A DNA stretch of 64,000 bases, taken from Candidatus Scatomonas pullistercoris. Lineage in GTDB: Bacteria > Bacillota > Clostridia > Lachnospirales > Lachnospiraceae. A model generated the notes under the pieces. It ran no database searches. It saw only the letters and a list, made by a program, of their open reading frames with translations, and was not told where the DNA came from. A program made the translations under genes and the position numbers. Location of the stretch: the NCBI GenBank assembly GCA_018713515.1, contig DVOO01000009.1:1-64000 (forward strand). Reading direction: 5' to 3'. Below, piece by piece: positions 38,597 through 46,021 of the stretch (positions are counted from its first letter, which is position 1; the number at the start of each line of letters is the position of its first letter).

Positions 38597-38637
38597 ACGC
38601 TAATTGCGTTGACAAAACACGATACGAGTTTTATAAT
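38597..38637 (+). promoter_or_regulatory. Perfect consensus promoter with possible operator
   Basis: TTGACA (38609-38614), exactly 17 bases, TATAAT (38632-38637): a full sigma-A consensus in both boxes and spacing. The small dyad ACGC-N5-GCGT ends at the -35 box. A promoter this strong normally needs a repressor, for which the divergent XRE protein is the natural candidate. Confidence 0.8.
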
Positions 38638-38665
38638 TTATATATTAACAAAAGGAGGAACCGGT

Positions 38666-39502
38666 ATGGCTAGCCAAAGGACTTTTGCACTTGTAAATGG
38701 CATGACAGTTGAAAAAATAGGGGAGCATCTGGTGGACTGGTTTCAGATGAATAAGAATATGGTGGCGGAAGGCGGCAGAGCCCAGGGAGGTGGCTATTTT
38801 GTTCAGGCGAAGGATCAAGAAGATGGGTGGAAAAAGATTTCAGGATTGACGAAGGCTATCCATGTGCAATTGATAAAGGCTGACAACAATGTGATTGTCA
38901 GCTGTGATTTTGGAAAATGGTCCGATAAGGTCGGAGCGGGTGCGCTGGGATTTTTTGTTTTTGCCCCTCTTGCTGCAACGGCCGCCTATGGCGCAGTAAA
39001 ACAGTCCCGATTGCCCGAGGAAATATTTGCAGAAATCGAAAAGTTCATCGTGTATGGTGGAAATTCTGTTGTTGTGTCTATGGGCGGAAGGTTGAAGGAG
39101 AATGAAATTGACTGTCCTGTATGTAAAGCTAAAAACCCAAAAGGACAGAAGTTCTGTAAAGAATGCGGAGCAAAACTGGGAAAGACGTGTCCCAACTGCG
39201 GTGCTGAGATTGACAATTCTGTGAAATTTTGTCCAGAATGTGGCGGCGCTGTCGAGGTGGTTCATACATGCGTTCGATGTGGGCGGCCGCTTTCAGAAGG
39301 AGAAAAATTTTGTCATTTTTGCGGAGCAAAACAGGAAAACTTGTGTCCGCAGTGTGGGGCTGTAGTCGAAAAGGGTATTGCTTTCTGTCCGGCCTGTGGA
39401 GCCAAAATGTCCGGGAAAAAACTGTGTAAAAACTGTAAAGCGGAAGTGCAGCCGGGTGAAAAGTTTTGTAAAGCGTGCGGAACCAAAGTAGATGAAGAAT
39501 AA
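38666..39502 (+). CDS. Protein with five tandem zinc ribbons
   Basis: A 278-residue protein. The N-terminal 150 residues hold an unassigned alpha/beta domain (SQRTFALVNGMTVEKIGEHLVDWFQ...) and a hydrophobic, glycine/alanine-rich segment (VGAGALGFFVFAPLAATAAYGAV). The C-terminal half is five zinc ribbons in a row, each C-x2-C...C-x2-C (CPVCKAKNPKGQKFCKECG, CPNCGAEIDNSVKFCPECG, CVRCGRPLSEGEKFCHFCG, CPQCGAVVEKGIAFCPACG, CKNCKAEVQPGEKFCKACG). Such ribbons bind protein or nucleic acid. The start ATG follows AAAAGGAGG. The function is unknown. Confidence 0.8.
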   Translation: MASQRTFALVNGMTVEKIGEHLVDWFQMNKNMVAEGGRAQGGGYFVQAKDQEDGWKKISGLTKAIHVQLIKADNNVIVSCDFGKWSDKVGAGALGFFVFAPLAATAAYGAVKQSRLPEEIFAEIEKFIVYGGNSVVVSMGGRLKENEIDCPVCKAKNPKGQKFCKECGAKLGKTCPNCGAEIDNSVKFCPECGGAVEVVHTCVRCGRPLSEGEKFCHFCGAKQENLCPQCGAVVEKGIAFCPACGAKMSGKKLCKNCKAEVQPGEKFCKACGTKVDEE

Positions 39503-39533
39503 GGGCTATAGGATTAGCCCTGTAGAGGTGAAA

Positions 39534-40091
39534 ATGAGTAAAATATGTATTAATTGTGGCGGAATTTTGGATGATGGATTGCATTTTTGTCCAGGATGCG
39601 GACGGAAAATAGAAATAATACGGGAAGACAGAAGGATGCAATGTAAAAACTGCGGATGTAAATTATCTCCTTTTTTTAATTTCTGCCCCAAATGTGGGAC
39701 CCCATTTGGAAGTGCAGCGCTTGTACTGAGTCAGGGAAAGGCATTTAAGGATTATACAGATTTTAATCTGATTAGAGATGCAGCGGCCGAACTTATCGGA
39801 AAGAGTAATGGCCATTCAGTCAGCATAAAATCTTGTAGAATAATAGGAAAATCGTATACGGAGGACAACTGCGGGGCAGGCCAGTGGATTTATTATATGG
39901 TAGCAGAAATCTCTGATTCTGAAGCTGAAAACCGGAGGTATGGAATCCTGCTTTGGAATCCGAAAAGAATGGGAAAGAATATAAGTTATCATTATCTGTC
40001 ATCGGCAATAGAATGCGGGGATATGAATACGGATGAAATAAAGGAGCTGTTATGGGATTTCGTAGAAAATAATTGCGGATGCATATGCTAA
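39534..40091 (+). CDS. Zinc-ribbon protein with unassigned C-terminal domain
   Basis: A 185-residue protein with two N-terminal zinc ribbons (CINCGGILDDGLHFCPGCG and CKNCGCKLSPFFNFCPKCG), followed by a 120-residue soluble domain (GKAFKDYTDFNLIRDAAAELIGKSNG..., ending ENNCGCIC) that I do not recognise. There is no membrane segment. It begins at the ATG after GTAGAGGTGAAA, 31 bases after the previous stop, and is followed 30 bases later by a membrane zinc-ribbon protein, so the three probably form one operon. Confidence 0.75.
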   Translation: MSKICINCGGILDDGLHFCPGCGRKIEIIREDRRMQCKNCGCKLSPFFNFCPKCGTPFGSAALVLSQGKAFKDYTDFNLIRDAAAELIGKSNGHSVSIKSCRIIGKSYTEDNCGAGQWIYYMVAEISDSEAENRRYGILLWNPKRMGKNISYHYLSSAIECGDMNTDEIKELLWDFVENNCGCIC

Positions 40092-40121
40092 AAGACAGAG
40101 GTTATTTGAGGAGAACCAGAT

Positions 40122-40739
40122 ATGTTTTGCGGAAGCTGTGGAAGAAAGATAAAGGAGCAGGCGAAATTCTGCCCTTATTGCGGGCAGCCTGTTCGGACAG
40201 AAACAGAACAAAATGCAACCCCCTTTTATAAAAAAGATTTTGGAAGAGGCAAATTTGATTTTAAAGCAAGTTCGCGTTCTCTTTGGGAAGATTTGTTTCC
40301 AAGCGGAAATCCGTCCATGAACTGGTACCAGTTTCTGATATGGGGATATTTGTTTTTTGTGGCATTTTTCGAGTTTATCACAGGCATTCGATATTTAATA
40401 AGCGTTTTGCGTATGTTTATGAATCGTTTTTTCTATGGAGGCATAATAACCGTCTATTTTATTTACATACTCTATTCATTTGGCGTGGCCGTATCGGCAA
40501 TTTATGTGCGGCAGCGGTTAATTCATTACAGGACGGATGCGCCAAAAGCCTTTTTAGTATGGTCAGGCGTATTTACGGTTGGAAATATTTTAATAATCGT
40601 TATTTCAGCGGCATTGAATGTATATGGGATGACAAAGACGCAGGCTGAAACGCTTCTCATGTGGATTGTCGGCGGATGCCTGATGGTTTTATTAAATTAT
40701 CTATATTTCAAGAAACGAAAATTTATGTTTGTTCATTAA
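40122..40739 (+). CDS. Membrane protein with N-terminal zinc ribbon
   Basis: A 205-residue protein with a zinc ribbon at its extreme N-terminus (MFCGSCGRKIKEQAKFCPYCG), a polar linker, and four membrane segments (FLIWGYLFFVAFFEFITGI, IITVYFIYILYSFGVAVSAIYV, AFLVWSGVFTVGNILIIVISAAL and LLMWIVGGCLMVLLNYLYF). The ribbon would face the cytoplasm. Proteins of this shape are common in Firmicutes and uncharacterised. It ends the zinc-ribbon gene cluster before a long hairpin. Confidence 0.8.
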   Translation: MFCGSCGRKIKEQAKFCPYCGQPVRTETEQNATPFYKKDFGRGKFDFKASSRSLWEDLFPSGNPSMNWYQFLIWGYLFFVAFFEFITGIRYLISVLRMFMNRFFYGGIITVYFIYILYSFGVAVSAIYVRQRLIHYRTDAPKAFLVWSGVFTVGNILIIVISAALNVYGMTKTQAETLLMWIVGGCLMVLLNYLYFKKRKFMFVH

Positions 40740-43245: not shown

Positions 43246-43803
43246 ATGCCTGATGCTAACATAACGAAAAACGCCCTGGCCTCGTCCATGAAAAAGCTGA
43301 TGAAAGAAAAGGCTTTTTCAAAAATCAGCGTGATTGATATCTGCGAAGGCTGTGGGATGAACCGCAAAAGTTTTTACTACCATTTTAAAGACAAATATGA
43401 TCTGGTAAACTGGATTTTTTATATGGATTTTATCGGTTTGGTGAATACAAAACAGTATCAGAACGGCTGGGATCTTCTTGTTTCAGTGGGAGAATTATTC
43501 TACCGGGATCAGGAATTTTACCGGGCCGCTCTGAAGATAGAGGGGCAGAATTCTTTCAGTGAATATTTCCATGAATCGATGACTCCGATTGTTTCATTTT
43601 TCCTGCGGGACATCTGTGATGTGGATGAGGATGCAGATCAGGAAATATTTATTACTTTTTTCTGTGATGCATATCTGGCAGCGGTCGTTCACTGGCTGGA
43701 AGACGGATGCCAGATGCGGCCGGAGGAGTTCATCGGCAATCTGAAAAAAATGATCCTGGGAATAGCCAGGCAGATCCAAAAGGAGGAGGCGGAAGCCGGT
43801 TAA
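43246..43803 (+). CDS. TetR-family transcriptional regulator
   Basis: A 185-residue TetR protein with the N-terminal HTH KNALASSMKKLMKEKAFSKISVIDICEGCGMNRKSFYYHFKDKYDLVNW and a C-terminal helical domain resembling the DhaS/TetR_C_7 type. The start is the ATG after GGGAGTGATACA. It is convergent with the radical-SAM-like gene, separated by a terminator, and follows the two-component genes with its own promoter. The target is not evident. Confidence 0.88.
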   Translation: MPDANITKNALASSMKKLMKEKAFSKISVIDICEGCGMNRKSFYYHFKDKYDLVNWIFYMDFIGLVNTKQYQNGWDLLVSVGELFYRDQEFYRAALKIEGQNSFSEYFHESMTPIVSFFLRDICDVDEDADQEIFITFFCDAYLAAVVHWLEDGCQMRPEEFIGNLKKMILGIARQIQKEEAEAG

Positions 43804-43872: not shown

Positions 43873-44904
43873 TCATTCGGGTGCCTTTTTGGGGAGAGCC
43901 AGAGTGAACAGACGATCCAGGGAACTGGTTCGGTGATAATCCTGTATGTACCCGTCCTGGGTGTGGATGGTTCCGTCCTCCATAAGTTCAAAAAAGCAGG
44001 GCTCATTGGAAATGCTGCGGTCAATCTGATAAATATCTGAATAAAGATTCAGCAGAACAAAGGGATGCAGCTGCTGGATGCGGACGGAGCGGATATACTG
44101 ATCGATCTCTTCGCGGTATTCGCTGCTGCAGTCGTCTCTGGGAACCATCAGGACAAAAGATGACTCGTAGGATCCGAAATTCTGGCAGCGGTTTCTGCGT
44201 ATCCAGCTGTCACCGTCAGCGTCCCCGTAGTATGCATAAATGCCGTACAGAGACTTCTGCCGGCGCATGCTGCGGGTATTGATATCGGTGTACGTTCCTT
44301 CCGCCGCGAACATGGACATGATATTGGTGCAGCGCTTCAGCAGCGCGAGATGTTCTGCGGAGAGCTTTTCATCCGGAAGGAAAAAGATAAAGGAGCAGCG
44401 GGAATATTTGCGGAAAATCTCCGTCAGCGCGGAAAGATCCGGAAATTCTCCCCTGCAGCGGAGAATATATGTATATATGCCCAGCTCTGTTCCCTGGCGG
44501 AGAAGAAGCCGCAGCTCCGAGGCATCAATGCTGTTGGGCAGCCGGGGATTCATGCGGAGAACCAGGGCCCAGGGAATCTGGTAATCCCGGTGCCTTTCGT
44601 TGGTCCGGATCAGATTGGCGCCGTAGGTCAGGCTGGTATAGCCGATATTGATTCCAAAATCTTTCAGCGCTTTGCGCTCTGTGTTGCGGAGCAGATGTTC
44701 AATTGCTGTATAATAGGGGCTGTCATCATTCCGCAGAAGCTCCTGAAACAGGGTGTACAGATCCTGAACGAAGCGGCCCCTGGAAAAGCGCTTGCCCATA
44801 TCGGCCAGTTTCCGGATACTGCGTTTGGGATCTTCTTCTATTTCGCGAAGTCCCCGGTCCAGTGTTGCGTCAATAATTGCTCTTGTAATTTCATTTGGTT
44901 TCAA
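43873..44904 (-). CDS. Radical SAM-like protein that lacks the cluster motif
   Basis: A 343-residue protein. By eye it follows the order of a common Clostridial radical SAM family: an N-terminal helical part, IPWAL at the first strand, QGTELGIYTYILRCRGEFP at the second (QGKELGIYxYIYTGGEPL in active members), then KYSRCSFIFFLPDEKLSAEHLALLKRC, and an ending like the substrate region (FFELMEDGTIHTQDGYI). The CxxxCxxC loop is replaced by RMNPRLPNSI (about 117-126), and GGEP by CRGE. It cannot hold the 4Fe-4S cluster in the usual way, so it is probably a pseudo-enzyme. The start is TTG after AGGGGAGGTAACACC; the ORF track's longer start overlaps that site. Confidence 0.6.
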   Translation of the reverse strand: MKPNEITRAIIDATLDRGLREIEEDPKRSIRKLADMGKRFSRGRFVQDLYTLFQELLRNDDSPYYTAIEHLLRNTERKALKDFGINIGYTSLTYGANLIRTNERHRDYQIPWALVLRMNPRLPNSIDASELRLLLRQGTELGIYTYILRCRGEFPDLSALTEIFRKYSRCSFIFFLPDEKLSAEHLALLKRCTNIMSMFAAEGTYTDINTRSMRRQKSLYGIYAYYGDADGDSWIRRNRCQNFGSYESSFVLMVPRDDCSSEYREEIDQYIRSVRIQQLHPFVLLNLYSDIYQIDRSISNEPCFFELMEDGTIHTQDGYIQDYHRTSSLDRLFTLALPKKAPE

Positions 44905-45154
44905 GGTGTTACCTCCCCTGTACGCATATGTTGCAGACAAATCTATTATAACAAAAATACGTCGGAGAAACTGTTAAAAAAGTATGAAGAATCCGGGCGG
45001 ATTCTAGGCAAAGAGAAATTGTATGTGTTATAATAAATAAAACCAGCAGACGGGCTGGTTTGGCATCTGGCGGTTAGTAATGACAAAGTTTTGCCTGAAG
45101 GGGCGGAAAGATACTGAATAATACTATATTTGCGGCGGAAAAGGAGCAGATCGT

Positions 45155-46021
45155 ATGAAATTTGATATGCATTGTCATACGAAAGAAGGATCGACAGACG
45201 GCAGAGTAATGATTGAAGAGTATATCCGGCGTCTGCGGGGAATGGGATTTGGAGGCATGATGGTGACAGATCACAATTCCTATGACGGGTACAGAGAATG
45301 GAAGAATTCTCTGAAGGGAAAAGAATACACAGATTTTGTGGTACTGAAGGGGATTGAATACGATACCCTGGACTGCGGCCATATGCTGGTGGTCATGCCG
45401 GTGGGAGTTAAGCTGCGGATTCTGGAGATGCGGGGACTTCCCATTGCGCTGTTGGTGAAGATTGTGCACAGGTACGGAGGAATCCTGGGGCCGGCCCATC
45501 CCTATGGGGAGAAGTATCTGAGCGTGTTCACAACGAGAGAGCGGAAGCGCAAGTATTCCAGGCAGGGAAATAAGAAGCTGATTGAGCAGTTTGATTTCAT
45601 AGAAATATACAATGCCTGTGAAAGAGATGAGATAAATATTAAAGCGGCAAAGCTGGCGAAGAAATACGGGCGGCCCGGCTTTGGGGGCAGTGACGCCCAT
45701 AAGCTGGAGTGTATCGGAAAAGGCTGGGCGGATCTCCCGGATACCATAAAAAACGAAAATGATCTTATTGCGTTCGTGAAGAGCAGTCCGGAAATCCGCT
45801 GCGGGGGCAGCTTCTACAATAAAACGGTCCGGGATAAACTGGGAAAATGGAATGTAATCCGTATAGACTCGTTTTTCCTTTACAATAAAATGGGGGCTTT
45901 CGGCAAATTTCTGAAAAGACGGAAGGAATTGAAGAAGCTGTATCCGGAGTACAAGGATACCATGAAGGGGGAAGAGGAGCCGGAGGTTTCCCTGGATATG
46001 AGAAATATGCAGAATTTATAA
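45155..46021 (+). CDS. PHP-domain metal-dependent phosphoesterase
   Basis: A 288-residue protein of the PHP superfamily: FDMHCHTKEGSTDG, MMVTDHNSYDGY, GIEYDTLDCGHMLVVM and FGGSDAHKLECIG hold the histidine and aspartate ligands of a trinuclear metal site. It resembles stand-alone phosphoesterases (PHP-type, TrpH-like) and not the polymerase domain. The C-terminal 70 residues are unassigned. AAAGGAGCAGATCGT precedes the ATG. A leader hairpin (AAACCAGC with its complement, 45040-45061) follows a TATAAT box upstream. Confidence 0.85.
   Translation: MKFDMHCHTKEGSTDGRVMIEEYIRRLRGMGFGGMMVTDHNSYDGYREWKNSLKGKEYTDFVVLKGIEYDTLDCGHMLVVMPVGVKLRILEMRGLPIALLVKIVHRYGGILGPAHPYGEKYLSVFTTRERKRKYSRQGNKKLIEQFDFIEIYNACERDEINIKAAKLAKKYGRPGFGGSDAHKLECIGKGWADLPDTIKNENDLIAFVKSSPEIRCGGSFYNKTVRDKLGKWNVIRIDSFFLYNKMGAFGKFLKRRKELKKLYPEYKDTMKGEEEPEVSLDMRNMQNL

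Follow-up and report, generated by a model that had tools for sequence, protein, structure and literature searches.

A cluster-less radical SAM family tied to DhaS-like TetR regulators may provide ligand-sensing co-regulators in Clostridia

Introduction

The DhaQ/DhaS module of Lactococcus lactis, which acts on dhaKLM (DhaS structure, PDB 2iu5), combines a DhaS-family TetR regulator with an enzyme-derived coactivator. DhaQ is an inactive paralogue of DhaK, and the published DhaS operator reportedly reads GGACACAT-N6-ATTTGTCC, matching the GGACA-N12-TGTCC repeat described below in both half-sites and spacing. DhaQ has been annotated as the coactivator of the DhaKLM operon (PMC8952416). In the accessible part of another report, SPV_0647 of Streptococcus pneumoniae, a TetR regulator of the 4mk6/DhaS fold, is tied to membrane fatty-acid genes, and that part mentions neither a pseudo-enzyme partner nor a radical SAM target (PMC12647141). 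For radical SAM homologues that lack the iron-sulfur cluster, the named precedent is the NCBIfam family TIGR04347 (pseudo-SAM/SPASM). Precedents thus exist both for pseudo-radical-SAM proteins and for a pseudo-enzyme that works with a TetR protein as its co-regulator; a radical SAM fold in the latter role would be new. Our literature searches on pseudo-radical-SAM families returned nothing relevant.

Here we analyze a gene in a 64,000-nucleotide stretch of DNA (the window) from the Lachnospiraceae member Candidatus Scatomonas pullistercoris. An earlier note, made from the sequence alone, had read its product as a radical SAM-like protein without the cluster motif, encoded convergently with a TetR gene. 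The arrangement that characterizes the DhaQ-DhaS module, an inactive enzyme-derived paralogue that lies beside a DhaS-like TetR regulator and co-occurs with it, is found for this gene and its relatives. The two systems differ in that DhaQ is related to DhaK and the window protein has a radical SAM fold, and in that DhaS targets a kinase operon, whereas the regulator studied here is predicted to target radical SAM and lipase genes.

Results

A conserved radical SAM family without the cluster

The reading frame is intact, as the earlier note had stated: all 343 codons are open, and AGGGGAGG precedes the TTG start (Table 1). Searched alone, the protein has no significant Pfam or NCBIfam match by sequence, is unmatched by any NCBIfam model, TIGR04347 included, in a search with E up to 1, and finds no useful match in a PDB sequence search. 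A search of related genomes with the same protein recovered full-length relatives at 30-72% identity. It also recovered, more weakly, genuine radical SAM proteins that are 450-490 aa long and contain Radical_SAM and SPASM domains. Scanning GTDB genomes yielded 80 pseudo-enzyme loci, ranging from Lachnospiraceae as far as Acetobacterium, Fusibacter and Tissierellia, with the nearest relatives of the window gene in Candidatus Scatomonas, its own genus. The Pfam Radical_SAM model detects none of the 80 family members, and no database family that we searched describes these proteins.

Table 1. Positions of the pseudo-radical-SAM gene, its parts and its neighbors in the window
Feature	Position	Strand	Remarks
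DhaS-like TetR regulator gene (TetR_N + TetR_C_8)	43246..43803	+	convergent with the pseudo-radical-SAM gene
Pseudo-radical-SAM gene	43873..44904	-	encodes 343 aa from a TTG start codon at 44904
Shortened radical SAM-like barrel, residues 105-343	43876..44592	-	cluster loop, GGEP and SPASM cysteines all absent
Five-helix N-terminal domain, residues 1-104	44593..44904	-	most conserved part of the family; AlphaFold2 model
Ribosome-binding site region	44905..44917	-	AGGGGAGG read on the minus strand
PHP-domain gene (CehA/McbA-like metallohydrolase)	45155-46021		divergent from the pseudo-radical-SAM gene

Descent from the clostridial radical SAM/SPASM enzymes, which are unnamed (profile A4), is firmly supported. 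An hhalign comparison of 80 pseudo-enzyme family members with 19 true enzymes gave a probability of 100 and an E-value of 3.2e-41 over 332 columns, a span that includes the N-terminal helical domain. The block-by-block resemblance claimed in the earlier note was borne out: IPWAL aligns with IPWAI or IPWTI of the true enzymes, QGTELGIYTYILRCRGEFP with QGKELGIYMYIYTGGEPLV, KYSRCSFIFF with KHNDCAFLSF, and FFELMEDGTI with YLHINANGDI. In the joint alignment, the three CxxxCxxC columns are gaps in 81/81 pseudo proteins and cysteines in 39/39 true enzymes, and the GGEP motif and the serine of the ribose motif are unconserved in the 81, in agreement with the loss of CxxxCxxC and GGEP reported for the window protein. 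Compared with the profile A4 enzymes, the family has its cluster loop deleted and has lost GGEP and the SPASM cysteines 349, 368 and 409 (numbered as in locus L115), which are replaced or deleted; the IPW directly ahead of the loop is retained, and the proteins are about 110 residues shorter. The family therefore belongs to the radical SAM superfamily by homology and lacks its catalytic CxxxCxxC, GGEP and ribose motifs and SPASM cysteines, and the window gene encodes a pseudo-enzyme.

Frames of about 340 aa are open in the relatives across Clostridia, and the window gene gives dN/dS values of 0.12-0.30 when compared with its closest relatives. These two results exclude an origin by frameshift or as a pseudogene and demonstrate that the gene is maintained by selection, as had been proposed for its cluster-less form. 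Maximum-likelihood analysis placed the pseudo proteins together on one side of a branch with 100/100 support; a single origin is likely and not proved, because the tree is unrooted. With the loop absent from every aligned member, that branch, those dN/dS values and no Pfam or NCBIfam model, the cluster loss defines an old, undescribed family and is not local decay.

The window protein was modeled by AlphaFold2 with a pLDDT of 91.3 and a pTM of 0.91 as a five-helix N-terminal domain followed by a shortened barrel. The top Foldseek matches are the radical SAM enzymes SuiB, SkfB and HydE, at TM-scores of only 0.33-0.45. A structure without a radical SAM fold, or homologues with the cysteines in place, would have spoken against the original interpretation; the model is radical SAM-like, and no member of the family has the cysteines. 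Residue conservation is highest in the helical domain and not at the former active site, and we infer, in the absence of contact data, that residues 1-104 are a candidate TetR interface.

We also considered whether further pseudo-enzymes were present among 39 genomes with weaker radical SAM matches, and rejected this for most of the 16 checked. Fourteen loci encode ordinary radical SAM proteins with CxxxCxxC (e.g., CNLHCAGCY), genomes G418 and G172 have only partial matches, and G148 has one ordinary enzyme plus a separate degenerate homologue. In the latter (L141:5913-6908, G148:C133), CxxxCxxC has become TASEKGRYL and GGEP has become SDAEP, and the SPASM part is lost. It falls inside the true radical SAM clade (83/92, on a long branch), apart from the pseudo-enzyme family, and a TetR gene (L141:5240-5791, plus strand) lies directly upstream. 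This pair is possibly an independent origin of the pseudo-radical-SAM/TetR arrangement.

Linkage to a DhaS-like TetR subfamily

The convergent TetR gene noted in the window is a recurrent partner: a TetR gene is convergent and adjoining in 56/80 pseudo-enzyme loci and lies farther downstream in 11 more. A true radical SAM gene is divergent and adjoining in 28/80, so that the typical cassette reads rSAM <- -> pseudo, <- TetR. Recurrent additions are a DegV gene next to the radical SAM gene and, at some loci, a patatin-like lipase gene between the pseudo-enzyme and TetR genes; LPG_synthase_TM, DUF308 and MATE proteins are also encoded at these loci. In the genus of the window, the PHP-domain gene occupies the usual place of the radical SAM gene, and two true radical SAM genes lie elsewhere in the genome; a PHP-domain gene takes the same place in the Fusicatenibacter loci L066 and L069. 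Elsewhere in the window, three successive genes (38609-40739) code for proteins with many zinc-ribbon-like CxxC motifs.

The TetR proteins linked to the pseudo-enzyme are all of a single subfamily. On the profile of that subfamily they score 187-273 bits, the bottom value coming from a truncated copy, compared with at most 159 bits for most other TetR proteins nearby; four more distant TetR proteins in pseudo-enzyme loci also reach 243-274 bits. All 32 sampled subfamily members match TIGR02366 (DhaS) at E <= 1e-10. The window protein, the only member in its genome, scores 121.8 bits on this model, under the 129-bit cut-off; among solved structures, 4mk6 and DhaS itself (2iu5) come nearest to it.

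Across 397 genomes of the family, the TetR subfamily (>=219 bits) occurs in 31 and the pseudo-enzyme in 35, and 29 genomes have the two together (Fisher, 8e-36). For the true radical SAM enzyme (E <= 1e-150), the count is 125 genomes, 29 of them shared with the pseudo-enzyme (Fisher, 7e-11). The pseudo-enzyme count leaves out G148, with its one short true-like protein, and the counts are uncorrected for relatedness. The pseudo-enzyme is much more tightly linked to TetR than to the radical SAM enzyme. For ten loci that lack an adjacent TetR gene, eight genomes have a gene of the subfamily elsewhere, and five genomes keep the pseudo-enzyme and TetR with no true radical SAM enzyme of the family found. 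In the reduced genome G001, from the genus of the window, the pseudo-enzyme and radical SAM genes are absent and the TetR gene has an in-frame stop; at this locus (L200, G001:C5:18500-25000), the TetR gene and an adjoining sensor kinase gene look broken, with PHP and ribosomal genes intact.

Pairwise distances over 36 loci gave partial correlations of 0.67 for pseudo-enzyme and TetR, 0.60 for pseudo-enzyme and radical SAM, and -0.06 for TetR and radical SAM. These values fit a position of the pseudo-enzyme between the other two and are confounded by shared ancestry. The statistical linkage establishes coupling of the pseudo-enzyme to the DhaS-like TetR; that the two proteins touch is an inference.

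An operator-like repeat

The sequence GGACA-N12-TGTCC stands exactly upstream of 23/80 pseudo-enzyme genes, and of 44/80 with at most one mismatch. Upstream of the same 80 genes, no exact repeat was found at spacings of 4-11 or 13-22 or in shuffles. Since the repeat had been discovered in this set, it was tested on other gene sets. It also precedes many of the adjoining TetR genes. Among radical SAM genes located apart from the pseudo-enzyme gene, it is exact upstream of 7/19 and within one mismatch upstream of 13/19, compared with 0/36 and 2/36 in genomes without a pseudo-enzyme (Fisher, 2e-4 and 1e-6, respectively).

In the genome of the window, the highest-scoring of the sites examined precede radical SAM gene 1 (23.8 bits), a patatin gene of the same family as the cassette patatin of other genomes (21.6) and radical SAM gene 2 (17.4). 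A further site in this top group, of 21.9 bits, lies between a permease gene and metK (G000:C32:149113-149134), 317 bases upstream of the start of metK, which encodes S-adenosylmethionine synthetase; its role as an operator is unproven. Separately, locus L092 has a distant metK-like gene beyond TetR, with an exact site between them. The remaining exact repeats in the genome of the window score 13-15 bits and lie inside predicted frames. At locus L118, two exact sites upstream of the patatin gene are common to it and the divergent TetR gene. No operator was found directly upstream of the DegV genes that accompany radical SAM genes. The repeat thus connects TetR, pseudo-enzyme, radical SAM and patatin genes; its function as an operator is inferred from sequence.

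Discussion

Our analysis identifies an old, selected family of cluster-less radical SAM homologues coupled to a DhaS-like TetR subfamily. By analogy with DhaQ and DhaS, and without contact or ligand data, we consider it somewhat probable that the pseudo-enzyme senses a ligand and serves TetR as a co-regulator. In this model, the DhaS-like TetR would most likely bind GGACA-N12-TGTCC, as inferred from the position, fixed spacing and phylogenetic linkage of the motif, and would control the genes for the true radical SAM enzyme and the patatin-like lipase; in most relatives, it would also control its own gene and that of the pseudo-enzyme. The empty barrel is inferred to bind a compound that the true enzyme consumes or produces, probably an acyl lipid, and a putative contact with TetR would pass on the signal. 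The earlier proposal of a SAM- or peptide-binding regulator survives in part: TetR co-occurrence and the operator-like repeat support a regulator, SAM binding is unsupported because neither GGEP nor the ribose motif is retained, and nothing points to a peptide. The recurring DegV, patatin and LPG_synthase_TM neighbors suggest a lipid-type ligand instead.

Several observations do not favor the co-regulator model. The promoters of the window's own pseudo-enzyme and TetR genes have no recognisable site, so the pseudo-enzyme may be expressed independently in this species, and genomes G132, G270 and G345 have the pseudo-enzyme with no TetR match and no site upstream of the radical SAM gene. The distance correlations also couple the pseudo-enzyme to the radical SAM enzyme, as would be expected of a subunit. 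The chief rival accordingly takes the protein for a non-catalytic partner of the true enzyme, acting as a scaffold, substrate presenter or allosteric subunit, and merely co-regulated by TetR. Their divergent adjacency in 28 loci, the operator-like repeat that they have in common, their co-occurrence and the correlation of their distances are all compatible with such a subunit. It nevertheless remains unlikely in our judgment: the linkage to TetR is the tighter one, in five genomes that keep the pseudo-enzyme and TetR no radical SAM enzyme of the family was found, and many genomes have the radical SAM enzyme without the pseudo-enzyme, so that the former does not require the latter.

We give still less credence to an independent effector of the regulon, such as a lipid carrier or a non-radical barrel enzyme, that takes no direct part in either regulation or the radical SAM reaction. 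The location among lipid-linked genes and a conservation pattern that does not single out the former active site would suit such a protein, but this reading leaves unexplained the near-absence of the TetR subfamily from genomes that lack the pseudo-enzyme. A decaying pseudogene or a chance resemblance, to which the absence of any Pfam or NCBIfam match for the window protein might point, is scarcely credible given the dN/dS values, the frames open across Clostridia, the hhalign E-value of 3e-41 and the confident structural model.

The Mss family of membrane-spanning lipid synthases has been reported from 561 Lachnospiraceae species (PMC13274423). The overlapping family distribution makes the true radical SAM enzyme a candidate Mss; this is a lead only, as it involves no comparison with an Mss sequence.

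For the group as a whole, we regard it as an evenly balanced proposition that radical SAM pseudo-enzymes act as ligand-sensing TetR co-regulators across Clostridia, with the dead copy reporting lipid status and controlling the live one. The label 'dihydroxyacetone kinase regulator' that databases attach to DhaS-like TetR proteins is probably wrong in these genomes, and our analysis supplies a predicted operator for this large class. A common, unnamed clostridial radical SAM enzyme can also be assigned a proposed regulator, a predicted operator and co-targets linked to lipids, and its function thereby becomes testable. If the co-regulator model is true, the radical SAM fold would be added to the few enzyme folds that have been converted into co-regulators of transcription, and the degenerate homologue beside another TetR at L141 would indicate that this evolutionary route has been taken repeatedly.
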